Source: Empedobacter tilapiae (GTDB lineage: Bacteria > Bacteroidota > Bacteroidia > Flavobacteriales > Weeksellaceae). From it: a DNA stretch of 64,000 bases. Location: positions 124,001 to 188,000 of the forward strand of contig NZ_SRPE01000006.1 in assembly GCF_004785645.1 (NCBI RefSeq), in the 5' to 3' direction. This document shows positions 24,138-33,500 of this stretch, in pieces; the stretch's first letter is position 1, and every line of letters starts with the position of its first letter. Made by a program: the position numbers and the translations under genes. Below the pieces are notes generated by a model. That model saw nothing but the letters and a program-made list of their open reading frames with translations. It made no database searches and had not been told where the DNA came from.

Positions 24138-25421
24138 TTATCCAATCATTAATGAAAAAAGTGTGTTGTCTGTATTAAGATATTGATAGCTAAAATGATG
24201 ATTTTCTAATCTAAATATTAAACCATCTAAATCTTCTTTTTTGTCTAATTCAATACCAACAACTGCTGGCCCTGTCTCTTTGTTATTTTTTTGCGTGTAT
24301 TGAAAATATGTGATATCATCATTTTTACCCAAAACTTCATTCACTAATTCTTTTAAAGCACCAGCACGTTGAGGAAAATTGATAATGAAATAATGTTTTA
24401 AACCTTCATATTGCAAACATCGTTCTTTAATTTCTTCCATTCTAGTAATGTCATTGTTGCTTCCACTAAGTAGACAAACTACATTTTTTCCTTTTATATC
24501 TTCCTTGAAAAAATCTAAAGCCGAAATGCTTAAAGCGCCTGCAGGTTCTACTACGATTGCATCTTCATTATATAAACGCAAAATACTAGAACAAACTTTT
24601 CCCTCTGGAACTGCACAAATTGTTTCTAAACCTTCTGCGCAAATTTTATACGTTTTATCGCCTGCTTTTTTTACAGCTGCTCCGTCTACAAAAGGATCAA
24701 TTTTAGTTAATTCAACCGATTTATTTTGTTTGATAGCTTCTGCCATGCTTGCTGCACCAGCTGGTTCTACACCAATAATTTTAGTGTTTGGACTAAGTTT
24801 TTTGATTACAGAAATAACGCCAGATGCTAAACCTCCTCCACCAATTGGAACGAAAATATAATCGATTGGTTGATCACATTGATTCAAAATTTCTAATGCA
24901 ACAGTTCCTTGTCCTGCGATAACTTTATCATCATCAAAAGGATGAATAAAAGTAATGTTTCCTTCTTGCGATAATTGATGCGCAAAAGTCGAAGCATCAT
25001 CAAATGTATCACCATGTAAAATAATTTCGATTTGATCTTTACCAAACCATTTTACTTGTTTTATTTTTTGTTGAGGCGTTGTCGTTGGCATCACAATTTT
25101 TCCTTTGATGTTTAATTGTTGACACGAGTACGCAACACCTTGTGCGTGATTTCCTGCACTTGCGCAGATTACACCATTATTTTTTTCTTGTTCTGATAAC
25201 TGAACGATTTTATTATAAGCACCACGCAATTTATACGAACGAACAACTTGTAAATCTTCTCGTTTCAAATAGATATTTGCCTCAAATTGACGACTTAAAT
25301 TTTCATTTAAAGTGAAAGGAGTTTTTTTGACAACTCCTTTTAAATTCACTTGTGCTAAGTTTATTTCGTCAAGTGAAACACCTAAGGTCTCAGTTTTCTT
25401 ACTTCTAAGCCTGTTTGCCAT
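24138..25421 (-). CDS. ilvA: Threonine dehydratase (biosynthetic)
   Basis: The 427-residue PLP enzyme makes 2-oxobutanoate from threonine, the committed step to isoleucine. The PLP lysine lies in RSYKLRGAYNKI (about residue 63), SAGNHAQGVA binds substrate, and GGGGLASG clasps the cofactor phosphate. The last 90 residues form a single ACT-like regulatory domain (FPQRAGALKELVNEVLG), shorter than the double domain of E. coli IlvA. It is the last gene of the ilv operon. Its ATG lies 40 bases inside ilvC, and no later in-frame ATG gives a full-length enzyme, so translation is probably coupled. Confidence 0.95.
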   Translation of the reverse strand: MANRLRSKKTETLGVSLDEINLAQVNLKGVVKKTPFTLNENLSRQFEANIYLKREDLQVVRSYKLRGAYNKIVQLSEQEKNNGVICASAGNHAQGVAYSCQQLNIKGKIVMPTTTPQQKIKQVKWFGKDQIEIILHGDTFDDASTFAHQLSQEGNITFIHPFDDDKVIAGQGTVALEILNQCDQPIDYIFVPIGGGGLASGVISVIKKLSPNTKIIGVEPAGAASMAEAIKQNKSVELTKIDPFVDGAAVKKAGDKTYKICAEGLETICAVPEGKVCSSILRLYNEDAIVVEPAGALSISALDFFKEDIKGKNVVCLLSGSNNDITRMEEIKERCLQYEGLKHYFIINFPQRAGALKELVNEVLGKNDDITYFQYTQKNNKETGPAVVGIELDKKEDLDGLIFRLENHHFSYQYLNTDNTLFSLMIG

Positions 25422-26419
25422 AATTCACTATTTCTAAGTTCTGTTAATTCTTCCTCTAATTTTTCACGATAATTGGGTTGACTATTTGCTTTAATTGTAA
25501 TCGCAGCTTCGTTACCTGTTGCAACGCTTTCGTATAAATCTTCTAAAACAGGTTTATTTGCTTCTTTAAATTTCCCTTTCCAATCTAAAGCCCCGCGTTG
25601 TGCGGTTGTAGAACAGTTTGCAAACATCCAATCCATTCCATTTTCAGCAACTAAAGGCATTAGACTTTGTGTTAACTCTTCAACTGTTTCGTTGAAAGCT
25701 TCACTTGGTGTATGCCCTTTTGAACGTAAAACTTCGTATTGTGCTTCAAAAATTCCGGCAATAGCGCCCATTAATACGCCACGTTCACCTGTTAAATCAC
25801 TGTAAACTTCTTTTTGGAAAGTTGTTTCGAATAAATATCCAGATCCAATTCCAATACCAATTGCTAATGCTTTTTCTTTTGCTCGACCAGATGCATCTTG
25901 GAAAATGGCATAACTAGAATTTAATCCTTTTCCTTCTAAGAATAAGCGACGTAAAGATGTTCCAGATCCTTTTGGAGCAGCTAAGAATACATCAACTTCT
26001 TTTGGAGGAACAATTCCTGTTTGCTTGTGAAATGTTGCGCCAAATCCGTGCGAAAAGTATAATGATTTTCCTTCTGTTAAATGTGGCTTTATTTGTTCCC
26101 AAGCAGCAATTTGTCCCGCGTCGGAAAGTAAATTCATTAAGATTGTTCCTTTTTCTGCTGCTGCTTCGATCTCAAAAAGTGTTTCACCTTCAATAAATCC
26201 ATCTCTAACAGCATTGTCCCAAGATTTACTTTTTTTTCTTTGCCCAACGATTACATTAAATCCATTGTCCTTTAAGTTCAATGCTTGTCCAGGACCTTGA
26301 ATTCCGTATCCTAAAACAGCTATTGTTTCGTTTGCTAAAACTTCTTTTGCTTTATCTAATGGAAACTCTTCCCTAGTAATTACTTCTTCTTGAGTTCCTC
26401 CGAAATTAATAATTGCCAT
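25382..26419 (-). CDS. ilvC: Ketol-acid reductoisomerase
   Basis: The 345-residue class I enzyme carries out the second step of valine and isoleucine synthesis. The Rossmann motif GYGIQGPGQALNL (38-50) is followed by the cofactor-specificity loop VGQRKKSKSW. The knotted C-terminal domain has the metal-site residues in DLTGERGVLMG and EAQYEVLRSKGHTPSEAFNETVEE. It follows ilvN by 11 bases and overlaps ilvA. Confidence 0.97.
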   Translation of the reverse strand: MAIINFGGTQEEVITREEFPLDKAKEVLANETIAVLGYGIQGPGQALNLKDNGFNVIVGQRKKSKSWDNAVRDGFIEGETLFEIEAAAEKGTILMNLLSDAGQIAAWEQIKPHLTEGKSLYFSHGFGATFHKQTGIVPPKEVDVFLAAPKGSGTSLRRLFLEGKGLNSSYAIFQDASGRAKEKALAIGIGIGSGYLFETTFQKEVYSDLTGERGVLMGAIAGIFEAQYEVLRSKGHTPSEAFNETVEELTQSLMPLVAENGMDWMFANCSTTAQRGALDWKGKFKEANKPVLEDLYESVATGNEAAITIKANSQPNYREKLEEELTELRNSELWQTGLEVRKLRP

Positions 26420-26430
26420 AATATTATTTT

Positions 26431-26658
26431 TTAGTTGTTTGTGTTTATTTTTTTGATTTCAATAATGCGATAAAATTGTAAAGCTAATTTTGCTTTTGTT
26501 AAATGTGTTGGATGATATGTGATTTCGACATCCGCCAAATTATTTTGTTGTTGTGTAACTTCTAAATGATTAATGTTGATACGGTTTCGAGTGAAAACAG
26601 TAATAACTCGTTCCAATGCTCCAACCTGATTTTCTACTGTAAGATGTATTGTTTCCAT
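26431..26658 (-). CDS. ilvN: Acetolactate synthase small (regulatory) subunit, ACT domain only
   Basis: The 75-residue protein is a single ACT domain (HLTVENQVGALERVITVFTRNRININHLEV), which binds branched-chain amino acids and gives feedback control of the large subunit. It lacks the second half present in the usual 160-residue IlvN/IlvH and is closer in size to E. coli IlvM. The 11-base gaps to ilvB and ilvC support co-translation. Whether it confers valine sensitivity cannot be told from sequence. Confidence 0.9.
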   Translation of the reverse strand: METIHLTVENQVGALERVITVFTRNRININHLEVTQQQNNLADVEITYHPTHLTKAKLALQFYRIIEIKKINTNN

Positions 26659-26669
26659 AATATTTTGAT

Positions 26670-28439
26670 TTAATAAAGACGTATTTCACTTACTGAGTTT
26701 CCTGCAGTAATCATAGGGAATACATATTCTTCACGTTTAACCTGTATATTTAATAAATAGCTTTCTTCTGATGTTAATAATCGTTCTAATGCGCCTTCTA
26801 ATTCTGCTGTTTCACTTACATTTTCAGCTTTAACTTCAAATGCTTCCGAAACTTTCGCAAAATCTGGATTCGTCATTTCTACGAAAGAGTAGCGTTTGTC
26901 GAAAAACATACTTTGCCATTGACGTACCATTCCTAAGAAATGATTGTTTAAAACAATTATTTTTACTGGAATTTTATATTGAGCAATTGTTGCCATTTCT
27001 TGAATTGTCATTTGAAAACATCCGTCTCCAATTACTGCAATAACTTCTCTTTTGGGTCGACCTAATTTAGCACCCATTGCAGCAGGTAAAGCAAATCCCA
27101 TCGTTCCTAAACCACCAGAAGTGTAATAACTATTTGGATGATTATAGTTGTAGTATCTCGCCGCCATCATTTGGTGTTGACCAACATCTGCAACAATTAA
27201 TGCTTCACCTTTTGTTTTTTCTGAAAGTTGATGCATAACTTGTGGCATCGTTAAGCTATTTTCTTTTGGTAAAATCGCTTCGTTACGCACATGAAAATTT
27301 TCTTCTTCATCTAATTTTTTGAATTCTTCTAACCATTCTGGATTAGATTTTGTTTGAAGTAGTGGCAATAATTTTTGCAAAACTTTTTTAGCATCTCCTA
27401 ATAAAGCAATCTCTGCATCAATAACTTTATTGACTTCAGAAGGGTCAATTTCGATGTGAATAATCTTTGCTTGTTTTGCATATGTATTTATGTTTCCAGT
27501 TACACGATCGTCAAAACGCATTCCTACAGCTAAGATTACATCCGCTTCGTTTGTCAATTTGTTCGGAGCATAATTTCCATGCATTCCAACCATACCTGCA
27601 AAAAGAGAATGATTAGAGAGGAAATTACTCAAACCATGTAAAGTACAAGCTGTAGGAATATTTTGTTTTTCCGCTAACTCTAAAACTTCACCTTCTGCTT
27701 TTGCAATTCCAACTCCATTTCCTACTAATAGCAAAGGCTGTTTTGCATTGTTCAATAAGTCGGCAGCTCTTTGTAGTTCAATTTTGAGAGAATTATTTTC
27801 TGGCATATAAACAGTTTTTTCTAACTCTTTAAAACATGGATAATGAAAATCTTGTGTTCTAGTTTTTATTTGAGCATCTTTTGTAATCTCAATGACAACA
27901 GGACCTGGTTTTCCTGTTTTTGCAACATAAAAAGCTTTGGCGATGATTTCTGGAATCTCATTTTCATCAACAATTTGATAATTCCACTTTGTAACAGATT
28001 TTGTCACACTCATCACATTTGACTCTTGGAAAGCATCTGTACCTAAAAGTGTAGATGGAACTTGGCCTACAATACAAACCATGGGAACACTGTCCATAAA
28101 AGCATCTGCTAAACCTGTTACCAAATTTGTTGCGCCAGGACCAGAAGTTGCAAATACAACACTTGTTTTTCTTGTTGCTCTTGCATAACCTTCGGCTGCA
28201 TGAGTAGCACCTTGTTCGTGACGAACTAAGATATGATTGATTGTATCTGAATAATCATACAAGGCATCATAAATAGGCATAATTGCACCGCCTGGATAAC
28301 CAAAAATGTATTCAACTTTCTCATTTATTAAACTTTCTAATACAGCATAAGCTCCTGTATTTTTTTTGTAGTTATTGGTCAGTAAGGCATCCTTCTGAAG
28401 CGTTTCCGACTTGCTTTGCGTATTTGTATAAGACTCCAT
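26670..28439 (-). CDS. ilvB: Acetolactate synthase large subunit
   Basis: The 589-residue thiamine-diphosphate enzyme condenses pyruvate with pyruvate or 2-oxobutanoate. It has the catalytic glutamate in [12 protein letters not shown] (Glu75), the FAD-domain sequence [11 protein letters not shown] (306-316) and the TPP/Mg motif from GDG (471-473) to NN (498-499). The ATG at 28439 is the only good start; it places 68 bases of the gene inside ilvD. The first about 24 residues before [11 protein letters not shown] are an unusual extension made of the overlap. Internal starts would delete the TPP domain, so I keep the overlap. Confidence 0.96.
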
Positions 28440-30060
28440 TTTTTACTTTTAATGCGGGTTGTTTCCAATTATTTTTTCGATTTTCTAATGTTTTTTCATC
28501 AACCAAAAGATTTAATTGATTTTTGTTGATATCAATTTCGATGAGGTCATTATTTTCGACTAATGCGATTGGACCTCCTTCAAAAGCTTCTGGTGTAATG
28601 TGACCGACGACAAATCCATGCGTTCCACCACTAAATCGACCATCTGTAATCAAAGCAACTTTGTTTCCTAGTCCAGCTCCGATAATAGCAGAGGTTGGTT
28701 TCAACATTTCTGGCATTCCAGGTCCTCCTTTTGGACCTTCGTTTCGGATAACGATGACGCTTCCAGCTTTAATTTGTAAATCTTCTATCGCTTTTAAAAC
28801 TTCAACTTCGCTATTAAAAACTTGTGCTTTTCCTTTGAAATAGAATCCTTCTTTCCCAGATATTTTTGATACTGATCCTTTAGGAGCAAGGTTTCCGTAA
28901 AGCATTTGTAAATGTCCCGTTTCTTTTATAGGGTTTGATAATGGACGAATAATATTTTGTTTAGAAAAATCTAAATCAGGAACTGCTACTAAATTTTCTG
29001 CTAATGTTTTTCCTGTAACAGTTAAACAATTTCCGTCGATTAAACCTTCTTTTAACATGTATTTTAATACAGCAGGAACTCCACCAACTTTACTCAAATG
29101 TTCCATTAAGTATTTTCCACTGGGTTTTAAGTCTGCTATAACAGGAGTTTTATCGTTTGTTACTTGAATATCGTCTAATGATAATTTGATATTCATTGTC
29201 GCAGCAATTGCTAATAAGTGTAAAACAGCGTTTGTGCTTCCGCCTAAAACAACGATTGTTTTAATCGCATTTTCTAAAGATATTTTCGTAATGATATCAC
29301 TTGGTTTAATATCTTTCTCTAATAAAATTCTTAGATAATGAGCAGCATTTGCACATTCTTTTTTCTTTTCTTGACTAAGAGCAGGGTAAGAAGATGAATA
29401 AGGAAGACTCATTCCCATTGCCTCGATTGCTGCTGCCATTGTGTTAGCTGTATACATTCCGCCGCAAGCTCCTGGACCTGGACAAGCATTTTGGATGATA
29501 CCACAAAAGTCTTTGTCATTAAGATTTCCATTTAATTTTTTTCCTAATGCTTCGAATGCAGAAACAATGTTTAATTCTTCTTCCTTGTAGTGTCCCGGAG
29601 CAATTGTGCCGCCGTAAATCATAATTGATGGACGATTCAAACGTCCCATTGCCATAATTGATCCAGGCATGTTTTTATCACAACCAGGAATTGTGATAAC
29701 ACCATCATAAAAGTGAGCTGCACAAACAGCTTCGATAGAATCTGCTATGATTTCTCTACTCACCAAAGAATATCGCATTCCAGAAGTTCCATTAGTAATT
29801 CCATCGCTAATTCCGATTGTGTTGAATTTTAATCCAGTTAGGTTTTCGGCTTTCATTCCGTCTTGAACCAATTGCGCAAACTGATTCAGGTGCATATTGC
29901 AAGTATTTCCATCGTACCCCATACTTGCAATTCCAATTAGTGGTTTTTCTAGGTCTTCGTTAGTTAGGCCAATTCCATGTAACATTGCTTGTGACGCGGG
30001 TAAAGTGTCATCTTGCGTTACGGTTCGGCTGTGTTTGTTTAATGTTTTGTTGTTGTTCAT
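28372..30060 (-). CDS. ilvD: Dihydroxy-acid dehydratase
   Basis: The 562-residue iron-sulphur dehydratase makes the 2-oxo acids that precede valine and isoleucine. Conserved cysteines lie in [16 protein letters not shown] and [16 protein letters not shown], and [26 protein letters not shown]-like sequence marks the C-terminal domain (DGRFSGG). I start at the ATG at 30060; a GTG three bases earlier is in frame. It is the first structural gene of the operon, directly after two tandem attenuators. Confidence 0.96.
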
Positions 30061-30096
30061 CACTGTTTATTTGATATTTTGTTTGTATTAAAACAT

Positions 30097-30124
30097 AAAA
30101 AAAGCCACCTTGAATAAAGGTGGC
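30097..30124 (-). terminator. ilv attenuator 2 (leader terminator proximal to ilvD)
   Basis: On the minus strand GCCACCTT pairs with AAGGTGGC around a 5-base loop and is followed by seven T residues (30103-30097), a strong intrinsic terminator 36 bases before ilvD. The 5' arm CCACCTTT is complementary to AAAGGTGG at 30159-30166, inside the last codons of leader peptide 2. This gives the alternative antiterminator pairing needed for attenuation. Confidence 0.88.
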
Positions 30125-30150
30125 TCATATAAATTCGTTCAAAAAATTCG

Positions 30151-30225
30151 TCATAAAACCACCTTTCCTAATCGTAAGACTAAGATTAAAATAATGATGA
30201 TAATAATGACGAAATTGTTTTGCAT
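30151..30225 (-). CDS. ilv leader peptide 2
   Basis: A 24-codon frame starts at ATG 30225 and stops at TGA 30153-30151. It encodes 16 branched-chain residues out of 24: residues 7-12 are six consecutive isoleucines, followed by a Leu/Val-rich stretch and a final VVL. This is the hallmark of a branched-chain amino acid attenuator leader, as in the E. coli ilvGMEDA operon. Its last codons (GGA AAG GTG GTT) contain the antiterminator strand AAAGGTGG. A ribosome stalled on the Ile codons would leave this strand free to pair with the terminator arm, whereas a ribosome at the stop codon would cover it. Confidence 0.88.
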   Translation of the reverse strand: MQNNFVIIIIIILILVLRLGKVVL

Positions 30226-30252
30226 AATATTGTTTAATTAATTTTTCTCCAT

Positions 30253-30283
30253 AAAAAAAGCCACTTCATTAAGAAGTGGCTTT
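30253..30283 (-). terminator. ilv attenuator 1 (promoter-proximal leader terminator)
   Basis: On the minus strand GCCACTTC pairs with GAAGTGGC around ATTAA/TTAAT, extended by A-T pairs, and is followed by a seven-T run (30259-30253). The 5' arm can instead pair with AAAGAGTGG at 30315-30323, at the end of leader peptide 1, with one bulge. Confidence 0.88.
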
Positions 30284-30307
30284 AATTGTTATTTTTTACG
30301 TACACAA

Positions 30308-30376
30308 CTAATTACCACTCTTTGGAGAAAGAATGACTAAAATAATTAAGTTAATAATGTTGTGAACTAATTTCAT
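30308..30376 (-). CDS. ilv leader peptide 1
   Basis: A 22-codon frame starts at ATG 30376, 15 bases after the predicted transcription start, and stops at TAG 30310-30308. It encodes five Ile, four Leu and two Val, clustered at residues 3-16 (for example NIINLIILVIL). The codons after that cluster (CCA AAG AGT GGT) contain the strand that can pair with the first terminator arm. The order peptide, competing strand, terminator is repeated for leader 2, so the operon has two attenuators in series. Confidence 0.85.
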   Translation of the reverse strand: MKLVHNIINLIILVILSPKSGN

Positions 30377-30394
30377 TTTCTATTTTTGATAAAT

Positions 30395-30402
30395 CAAAGC
30401 TA
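30395..30402 (-). promoter_or_regulatory. -7 element TAGCTTTG for the ilv operon
   Basis: A perfect TAnnTTTG match on the minus strand, 18 bases upstream of leader peptide 1. The -33 region is weak. Confidence 0.6.
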
Positions 30403-30527
30403 GAATTATTTTTTTAAACGAGTCTGTATTTTTTCTAAAAAATTTTCTAAAAAATACTATTTATTTGAAATTCATATTTATGTGTTTCATTTTTTGAAGA
30501 TTGTTTAAAAATATGCTTATTTAATTT

Positions 30528-30535
30528 TATATTTG
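30528..30535 (+). promoter_or_regulatory. -7 element TATATTTG for mfd
   Basis: A perfect TAnnTTTG box followed by C, only 7 bases before the TTG start codon of mfd, predicting a near-leaderless transcript. Confidence 0.65.
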
Positions 30536-30542
30536 CAAAACT

Positions 30543-33500
30543 TTGGAACAGAAAACTATCCACAACGTTTTTAGCTTATACGATTCTTCAGATTTCGTAC
30601 AGAAGCTTATTGTCAATTTTAAAAATAATCCACAACATAAAGTCAATATCAAAGGTTTTTTAGGTTCAGGATTGAGCATTTTAACTGGTCATTTATATGA
30701 TCGTGTTGCGTGTCCAACGATTCTAATTTTTGATGACAAAGAAGAAGCTGCTTATGTACTGAATGATTTAGAGACTTTGTTTGATAAAGAACAAATTCTA
30801 TTCTTTCCATCTTCTTACAAACGACCTTACGAAATTGAGGAAGTAAATAACGCGAATGTTGTCGTTAGAACTGAGGTGTTAAATGCATTGTCGCATTCCA
30901 AACGCCCAAAAATCGTGGTGACGTATGCAGAAGCCTTGTCAGAAAAAGTAGTGACAAAAAAAGCATTGACAACGAATACTTTAAAAGTAAAAGTTGGAAA
31001 TGATTTAGGAATTGATTTCTTGACAGAGGTTTTATCTTCTTATAACTTTCATCGCGTTGATTTTGTTTCTGAGCCAGGCGAATTCTCGATTCGAGGAGGG
31101 ATTATTGATGTATTTTCGTTTTCTAATGAGCATCCTTATCGTATATCATTGTTTGGTGACGAGGTTGAAACAATCAGAACATTTGATATAGAGAATCAAT
31201 TGTCAATTGCTACAACAAAAGAAATTACAATTATTCCGAATCTTGAAAGTAAATCAATTAATGAAAAACGTGAGAGTTTCTTAGAATATATTTCGAAAGA
31301 TAGTTTAGTTATAGCGAAAAATATTTCTGTTTTAGCCAAACAAATTACTAAAAATTTTGAACAAGCTGAAACTGCTTTTGCTGAATTAAAAGGAGAAATT
31401 AAACAAGCTGAACCGAATCAATTATTTTTGAATGAGAATGGTTTTCTTCAACAAATTTCATCTTTTGGTGTGATTGAATGTTCAATGAAATCTTATTTTG
31501 AGACGGTTGAAGAAATTGAATCACCATTCAAACCTCAACCAAGTTTTAATAAACAATTCGAGTTATTAATTGATGATTTGAACGAGCATAAAATAGAAGG
31601 TTTTAAAAATGCATTGATTTGTTCAAATGAAAATCAAATAAAACGTTTTGAAGAAATTTTTGATGATATCGGAAAAGAAGTTTCGTATATCCCAGTTTTG
31701 GGTTCTATTTATCAAGGTTTCATTGATGAAGAAATCAAATTAGCTTGTTACACAGATCATCAGATTTTTGGACGTTATCATAAATTCAATCTTCGAAATT
31801 CATTTTCCAAAAAAGAAGCGATTACTTTGAAGGAAATCAATTCGTTGCAAGTTGGTGATTTTGTGACGCATATTGATTATGGAATTGGAAAATTTGCAGG
31901 TCTTGTAATTTTGAATAATAATAATATAAGGCAAGAATCCATTAAATTGATTTATCAAAATAATGATATTCTGTACGTTAATATTCATTCGTTACATAAA
32001 ATTGCAAAGTTTAGAGGAAAAGACGGTCAAGAACCAAAAATATCAAAACTTGGTTCACCAGCTTGGAAAAATTTAAAGAATAAGACCAAGGCGAAAGTAA
32101 AAGAAATTGCTTTCGATTTGATTAAATTATATGCGAAACGTCGAGCTAGAAAAGGCTTTGCGTATTCGCCTGATACATATTTGCAAAATGAGTTGGAAGC
32201 GTCTTTTATTTATGAAGATACTCCAGATCAGTACAAAGCGACGCAAGATGTAAAAGCGGATATGGAATCTGAACGCCCAATGGATCGTTTGGTTTGTGGA
32301 GATGTTGGTTTCGGGAAAACGGAGGTTGCGATTCGTGCGGCGATGAAAGCAGCTGTCGATGGAAAACAAGTTGCTGTTTTGGTTCCCACTACGATTTTGG
32401 CTTTTCAACATTTCAAAACATTCTCTGAGCGTTTACGAGATTTGCCTGTGAAAGTTGCTTATCTCAATCGTTTTGTAACTGGTGTGAAGAAAAAAGCAGT
32501 TCTAGATGGCTTAAAGTCAGGTCAAGTTGATATTGTGATTGGGACGCATCAATTGGTTAATCCAAAAATTGAATACAAAGACTTGGGATTATTAATTGTG
32601 GATGAAGAGCACAAATTTGGTGTTGGTGTAAAAGACAAATTGAAAACGCTTCGTGAAAATATTGATACATTAACGTTAACTGCAACGCCAATTCCGCGTA
32701 CACTTCAGTTTTCGTTGATGGCTGCTCGAGATTTATCGGTAATCAAAACTCCTCCGCCCAATAGACAACCTGTCGATACGCAATTGGTTGGTTTCAATGA
32801 AGAGATTTTCCGAGATGCTATTATGTACGAAATGCAACGTGGTGGACAAGTTTATATCATTCACAATCGTGTTCAATCGTTGAAAGATATTGCTGGAATG
32901 GTTCAACGATTAGTTCCTGACGCAAAAGTGGCGATTGGTCATGGACAAATGGATGGAAAAGAATTGGAAGCCGTTTTACTCGATTTTATTGATGGACGAT
33001 ACGATGTTTTTGTTTCGACAACGATTATTGAATCTGGTTTAGATGTACCGAATGCGAATACAATTTTAATCAATGATGCACAGAATTTTGGTTTGGCAGA
33101 TTTACATCAAATGCGTGGACGTGTTGGTCGTAGTAACCGCAAGGCATTTTGTTATTTAGTTGCGCCACCACTTTCAGTTTTAACGGATGAAGCACGTAAA
33201 CGTTTGCAAGCAATTGAGCAGTTTTCTGATTTGGGCTCTGGATTTAATATTGCGATGAAAGATTTGGAAATTCGTGGAGCTGGAAACCTTTTGGGAGCAG
33301 AACAAACAGGGTTTATGATGGATATTGGTTTCGAAACGTATCAAAAAATCTTGAATGAAGCGATAGAAGAATTGAAAGAAACAGATTTCAAAGATTTGTT
33401 TGAAGATCAAAAGTCGGGTGAAGTAAAATCGTATGTTTCAGATGTGCAAATTGATTCTGATTTACAAATTATGTTCCCAGATGAATACATTGAAAGTTCA

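Follow-up and report, generated by a model that had tools for sequence, protein, structure and literature searches.

The ilv leader of Empedobacter tilapiae

We analyzed a 64-kb stretch of DNA from Empedobacter tilapiae, referred to here as the window, whose minus strand carries an ilvDBNCA operon. The predicted first controlled gene is ilvD (28372..30060), which encodes dihydroxy-acid dehydratase and most likely starts at the ATG at 30060. It is followed by ilvB (26670..28439), encoding the large subunit of acetolactate synthase, whose ORF overlaps the end of ilvD and whose true start may be later; by a 75 amino acid ilvN-like small subunit ORF (26431..26658), named by eye; by ilvC (25382..26419), encoding ketol-acid reductoisomerase; and by ilvA (24138..25421), encoding threonine dehydratase. 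The other four genes were assigned by Pfam. The leader lies between ilvD and an mfd-like gene on the opposite strand (30543 onward), and it extends to the ilvD start from a promoter -7 box, TAGCTTTG (30395..30402), found by its match to TAnnTTTG, the motif that we take to be the Bacteroidota -7 box. This is the sole minus-strand TAnnTTTG match within 29900-30700, hence the leader has a single box, and the same single box is kept in 7 of 7 genus relatives.

Two units were identified downstream of this box, both on the minus strand. The first begins with leader ORF 1, read from the sequence as MKLVHNIINLIILVILSPKSGN (22 codons; 30308..30376). By folding, its strand 1 (GTTCACAAC, 30359..30367) is complementary to GTTGTGTAC at 30308-30300, which belongs to the strand 2 region (AAAGAGTGG ... 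GTTGTGTAC, 30300..30323) delimited by folding and alignment. The 2:3 pairing of this unit joins AAAGAGTGG (30323-30315) to CCACTTCTT (30279-30271), and an intrinsic terminator consisting of strands 3 and 4 and a T tract, identified by terminator score and folding, lies at about 30253..30283. The second unit begins with leader ORF 2, read in the same way as MQNNFVIIIIIILILVLRLGKVVL (24 codons, with six consecutive Ile codons; 30151..30225). Folding places its strand 1 (TTTCGTCAT and ATCATC, complementary to ATGACGAA and GGTGGT) at 30196..30214, and folding and alignment place its strand 2 region (AAAGGTGGTT ... ATGACGAA), which overlaps the stop codon, at 30147..30166. Its 2:3 pairing joins AAAGGTGGTT (30166-30157) to AGCCACCTTT (30125-30116), and its intrinsic terminator, again with strands 3 and 4 and a T tract and identified by the same two means, lies at about 30097..30126. 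An earlier note on this DNA had described the box, the two ORFs and the two terminators ahead of ilvDBNCA, and our reading agrees with it base for base; the strand that it had placed near the end of each peptide, complementary to the 5' arm of the following terminator, was likewise recovered in both units, with a bulge in unit 1 of E. tilapiae.

To detect such units, we required an ILV-rich ORF, a strong terminator shortly after its end, and a strand complementary to the 5' arm of the terminator. We set the thresholds of this detector ourselves (terminator score of 18 or more), and a few of the units that it lists look spurious (e.g., L012). Among the 34 terminators with a score of at least 18 on both strands of the window, two passed the unit criteria, both of them in the ilv leader, and dinucleotide shuffles of the leader yielded one unit in 0 of 3000 cases and two strong terminators in 0 of 3000. 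Each unit has a short ORF rich in codons for the end products of the operon: Ile, Leu and Val account for 11 of 21 residues in ORF1 (P = 0.0045) and 16 of 23 in ORF2 (P = 5e-6), in comparison with ten genes of the window. In each unit, moreover, both sequence and folding place the intrinsic terminator between this ORF and the operon.

We also observed that the Val codon GTC (an example in the window is 30210-30208) makes up 48% of the Val codons (205/431) in 148 distinct ILV leader ORFs of the fetched loci, compared with 12% (517/4196) in ilvD genes. The leader GTC codons often lie inside GTCATTATT, and they may have a role in strand-1 pairing or be slowly read codons.

Folding of the two units

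Compared with 200 shuffles, the terminator (3:4) folds had z-scores of -6.4 in unit 1 and -5.4 in unit 2, and the antiterminator (2:3) folds had z-scores of -4.6 and -4.2, respectively. Our analysis also revealed a strand absent from the earlier note, as early codons of each unit are able to pair with the strand 2 region. This 1:2 pairing is significant in unit 2 (z = -3.6) and non-significant in unit 1 (z = -1.5), where the bases of strand 1 and GTTGTGTAC are invariant in 7 of 7 genus genomes. The predicted 1:2 hairpin looks like the protector of E. coli-type attenuators.

In silico, the 2:3 pairing of each unit is exclusive with the terminator and is prevented when a ribosome occupies the stop codon. 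In the six of seven genus genomes for which results are listed, a simulated ribosome footprint at the stop codon left the terminator in the best fold of both units, and strand 3 paired upstream when the A site was set on Ile codons no later than codon 16; a stall at Ile 17 of unit 1 (G002, G005, G008, and G011) comes too late for the release of strand 2. In E. tilapiae, this switch between the stop-codon fold and the stall fold was robust to three footprint sizes, over which the ILV stalls that free strand 2 span codon 3 to codon 15 or 16 in unit 1 and codon 6 to codon 16 or 17 in unit 2.

With nascent RNA ending after strand 3 and free of ribosomes, the best fold was 2:3 in unit 1 of 6/6 genomes and in unit 2 of 4/6, E. 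tilapiae being among the two exceptions, whereas the complete leader folded as a whole into 1:2 plus 3:4. The outcome in the absence of translation would thus depend on timing, and the protector is doubtful, being clear in unit 2 at most and often outcompeted in the modeled nascent RNA. We set aside the alternative of units devoid of any protector, as folding gives a possible 1:2 hairpin, though nascent RNA mostly favors 2:3.

A comparison of predicted energies showed that 2:3 is stronger than 1:2 in unit 1 of 7/7 genus genomes and that 1:2 is stronger than 2:3 in unit 2 of 4/7, an asymmetry that runs the opposite way in a further 40 tandem loci (unit 1 favors 1:2 in 39/40, and unit 2 favors 2:3 in 35/40), although these figures are rough because they include near-identical sequences and some mis-set ORF starts (e.g., L168); L001, L106, L108, L152, L156, and L157 were left out as duplicates. 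Such an asymmetry might point to one strict and one permissive gate, which we do not claim given the roughness of the estimate.

Conservation and recurrence of the doubled leader

A search with IlvD gave matches in 8 of 14 genus genomes, seven of them at 89-100% identity (the source genome included) and one (G010) at 65%; the closest named relative is Empedobacter sedimenti (96%). The six genus genomes with no match to this IlvD may be auxotrophs. It should also be noted that the IlvD of the window (28372-30063) is only about 69-70% like its nearest family relatives outside the genus group, which is about as close as it is to Sphingobacteriales.

Near-full-length DNA matches to the leader were confined to the seven genomes carrying this ilvD, the other 7 of the 14 giving short matches. 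Both units, each with its ORF, strands and terminator, are present in 7/7 of these genomes, down to 81% leader identity, and the six consecutive Ile codons of ORF2 are kept in all seven. The earlier note had proposed that a loss of the units in close relatives keeping the operon would speak against its reading, and no such loss was found in the seven genomes. G010 carries its own, different tandem ahead of an ilvE-ilvD operon.

In these alignments, from which L001 was left out as apparently the same record as G008 (their units agree), the 1:2 pairs are kept in 97.9% of cells in unit 1 and 96.1% in unit 2, the 2:3 pairs in 92.9% and 85.7%, and the 3:4 pairs in 100% and 97.1%, respectively. All six helices lie above their own slid-partner controls (24-70% paired), which flatter the helices because the structures were derived from these same sequences. 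Covariation in the genus is sparse, with slight evidence and none clearly beyond shuffles: no pair of unit 1 changed on both sides, and unit 2 had one both-sided pair in 1:2 (3 cells, a level reached by 52 of 500 shuffles), two in 2:3 (reached by 231 of 500) and none in 3:4. Variability by codon position is weakly coding-like (6, 3, and 6 of 19; 5, 1, and 7 of 15). The ORF ends early in unit 1 of G003 and in unit 2 of G002 and G003, and the strand 2 bases persist there as non-coding sequence, which points to selection on the RNA.

To assess how widespread the doubled leader is, we surveyed the ilvD upstream regions of 123 distinct genomes obtained through genus, family and order IlvD searches, which gave matches in 8/14, 182/320, and 190/395 genomes, respectively. 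A tandem was scored in 47 of the 123 genomes, a single unit in 47 and none in 29, in a set that consists mostly of the better IlvD matches rather than a random draw and in which the class without units includes short contigs (L098, L132). All eight ilvD-bearing genomes of the genus have a tandem. The 58 genomes of a sister genus (g6), presumably Chryseobacterium, comprise 37 with a tandem, 19 with a single unit and two with none, and two genera of a further family (f3), probably Flavobacteriaceae, have one tandem each (G377 and G384). One more locus (L174, from G483) is a tandem by eye that is broken by a contig end, and was not counted as such. Among 80 named loci, we found one tandem (that of the Empedobacter), 24 single units, two far-apart pairs and 53 loci with none, some of these having short flanks.

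It is possible that only one unit works, its partner being a relic or the weak remnant of a duplication, in line with how common a single unit is in the relatives surveyed and with the fact that units 1 and 2 of the source genome are more alike than shuffles (72 vs. 29.6), as in an old duplication. Nevertheless, both units are maintained in full throughout the seven genomes, and it is the upstream unit that is the more conserved (mean column identity of 93% vs. 85%), which makes this explanation quite improbable. The similarity scores speak neither for nor against a recent tandem duplication, the alignment score of unit 1 against unit 2 (72) being no better than that of some pairs with units of other genera (33-89).

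Stem sequences differ among lineages, and the ILV-rich ORF and the layout are shared. In a swap test of 38 stem clusters, the own 2:3 pairing scored 17.4 compared with 12.8 with foreign arms (p = 6e-10); 17 of the 38 clusters outscored 90% or more of the foreign arms and three fell below the swap mean, and at the 5% level 48 of 127 units did better than almost every foreign arm. Covariation in g6 was analyzed in an alignment (A3) of 26 of the 37 tandem genomes, leaving out 11 in which the detector had set another ORF1 start (A4 holds all 37). One pair of the unit 1 terminator is changed on both sides in 9 of the 26 sequences, with 0 of 500 shuffles having as many such cells. The same nine sequences have lost the corresponding 2:3 pair, and little covariation was seen in the remaining g6 helices that we counted. 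In a 51-row IlvD tree, tandem leaders occur in three places (the seven genus genomes, 19 of g6, and G010), requiring at least two changes, with deep branches at 81%; one old origin of the tandem leaders is nonetheless still conceivable from these sequences.

Sequences outside the ORFs are also strongly conserved, notably between ORF1 and terminator 1, as might be expected if the leader sensed a signal other than tRNA, through a riboswitch, a T-box or a protein, and the ORFs were incidental. We found this highly improbable, taking into account that the ILV-rich ORF and the layout are what other lineages share while the stem sequence is not, that the additional conserved bases are consistent with strand 1 and a distal antiterminator pairing, and that the leader matches no Rfam family at gathering score. 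Within the window, no riboswitch or T-box was detected at gathering score, the Rfam matches being two tRNAs only. Three Rfam leader families scored below threshold (Phe_leader, 30.3/55; Thr_leader, 24.4/55; His_leader, 18.6/49 bits), with Phe_leader as the best sub-threshold match and Thr_leader ranking among unrelated sRNAs of similar score.

Several features of other loci were observed in passing. A box, TACATTTG, is identical in all 26 g6 loci of A3 (e.g., L114 and L120) and lies 4 bases ahead of the ORF1 start codon, so that in g6 the first leader peptide may begin very close to the transcript's 5' end. Four g10 genomes (L092, L094, L097, and L105) have an ILV leader before ilvD that starts at GTG rather than ATG (VARLVINIIVIIIQNKSFGSGRYVFK). 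Two Pedobacter records (L042 and L056) have, within a single operon region, two ILV attenuators located about 1.2 kb and less than 0.1 kb ahead of ilvD, the far one being richer in Leu; the translated ends suggest that the gene in between is ilvE, which would place one attenuator before ilvE and the other before ilvD. Finally, in the source genome itself, no ILV leader was detected in the fetched flanks of other branched-chain genes, namely the stronger of two leuA-like matches (L213, the weak one being L214) and three genes with Aminotran_4 domains (L215-L217).

Proposed series gating and its relation to known systems

Our analysis suggests that the leader very probably forms two ribosome-mediated transcription attenuators in series, both acting on a transcript that starts at a single promoter. 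This reading, put forward in the earlier note, draws support from the sequence, from folds computed with simulated ribosomes, from conservation in 7/7 genomes and from recurrence elsewhere with other stems. With charged Ile (and Val/Leu) tRNAs available, a ribosome would reach the leader stop codon and cover strand 2, allowing 3:4 to form and transcription to terminate; a ribosome stalled on Ile, Val or Leu codons would leave strand 2 free to pair with strand 3, and RNA polymerase would read through. With no ribosome loaded, strand 1 could hold strand 2, favoring termination. Each gate would therefore open on a shortage of Ile tRNA and, to a lesser degree, of Val or Leu tRNA. The single promoter box suggests that every transcript must pass both gates, in which case ilvD would be reached only by transcripts that pass both, and leak and induction would multiply. 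From the arrangement of the leader we infer translation of both ORFs, stalling, termination at both sites and a multiplicative output, which would provide a lower leak at the cost of a lower maximum. If readthrough values of 0.1 and 0.6 are assumed, the response would be 6-fold through one gate and 36-fold through two, the latter with a lower maximum. Series gating for a low leak and a steep response is thus our best reading of this locus.

The earlier note had also suggested that the gates may sense different charged tRNAs. On such a reading, which is compatible with attenuators in series, they would mainly sense different amino acids (e.g., Leu/Val/Ile in unit 1 and Ile in unit 2). The residue content does differ in the source genome (I5 L4 V2 in unit 1 vs. 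I7 L5 V4 in unit 2), and in two g6 loci (L120 and L165) the four Leu residues of unit 2 contrast with none in unit 1. However, the tandems L175 and L188 have no such split, and Ile, Leu and Val codons occupy strand-2-freeing positions in both units, so that Val and Leu codons of either leader could cause a stall. Because both leaders are Ile-dominated, different sensing is weakly supported, and we consider a division of labor between the gates rather unlikely.

Regarding the two gates in series, it is also conceivable, albeit unlikely, that they are coupled: once gate 1 is open, the freed 3' arm of terminator 1 would pair with the 5' arm of a terminator 2 that is still incomplete. If this were true, passing gate 1 would help to open gate 2, and RNA alone would produce a cooperative, switch-like response. 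In the seven genus genomes, the predicted cross-pairing amounts to -11.3 to -16.6 kcal/mol and at least equals that of terminator 2's own arms in 3/7, compared with an average of -4.4 to -4.5 kcal/mol for the 3' arms of the 34 window terminators, a control that includes the leader's own two arms and in which 0 to 2 of 34 were as strong. With the arm assumed free in nascent RNA, the cross-pairing was the best partner in 3/3 genomes, either ribosome-free or with a ribosome at the ORF2 stop, and in 1/3 with a stalled ribosome. It is present in L175 and L088 and absent from the three g6 loci tested and L188, so coupling would be a lineage-specific refinement. A plain alternative is that the cross-pairing reflects stems that are alike by descent.

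Classical attenuation is textbook RNA-based control that is as a rule drawn as one gate, and the doubled ilv leader bears on how it works in Bacteroidota. The recurrent natural doubling (47/123) raises a testable question, namely whether attenuators are stacked for a lower leak and a steeper response, and evolution offers a comparison, as the number of gates ahead of this kind of operon varies between one and two among relatives of one family. In E. coli, leader-peptide attenuators precede the cognate biosynthetic operons ilvGMEDA, ilvBN, leu, his, and thr. The Empedobacter leader resembles them in its leader peptides rich in regulatory residues, its mutually exclusive pairings, its intrinsic terminators and its cognate biosynthetic operon, and differs from them in that two complete units follow one another, no Shine-Dalgarno sequence is apparent on visual inspection, and a protector is clear in unit 2 at most. 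Comparative work on leader-peptide attenuators in Bacteroidota has reportedly been carried out by Vitreschak in 2004 and Lopatovskaya in 2010.

The earlier note knew of no described tandem of this kind in Bacteroidota. Among the listed matches from open-licence papers we likewise found no doubled leader-peptide attenuator of amino-acid genes with intrinsic terminators, although an earlier paper, or one outside these matches, may describe such an arrangement, and excerpts of PMC4833913, PMC8632094, and PMC13178558 contain nothing on tandem attenuators. The arrangement is not peculiar to the source genome. Within Bacteroidota, excerpts describe leader-like sORFs in Bacteroides thetaiotaomicron (PMC7366714) and clues to leader-peptide attenuation before amino-acid operons, as found here, in Flavobacterium psychrophilum, with no mention of tandems in the excerpt (PMC9723704).

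The tandem riboswitches of Bacillus clausii metE, as described in an excerpt of PMC3641672, are similar to the ilv leader in having two sensors in series, each with an intrinsic terminator, and unlike it in binding metabolites directly, responding to two signals and having no leader peptides. The nearest described system is that of Salmonella mgtCBR, whose tandem attenuators sense ATP and proline and which the same excerpt calls a singular example, with hairpins unlike intrinsic terminators (PMC3641672). Both leaders contain two short ORFs, each acting, or predicted to act, on an alternative hairpin. Unlike mgtCBR, which responds to two signals without intrinsic terminators (PMC3641672), the ilv units both have intrinsic terminators and serve the same pathway, and with two such terminators and two ILV-rich leaders the locus falls outside the mgtCBR type. 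In its workings, the ilv leader would correspond to classical attenuation in a doubled form that recurs.
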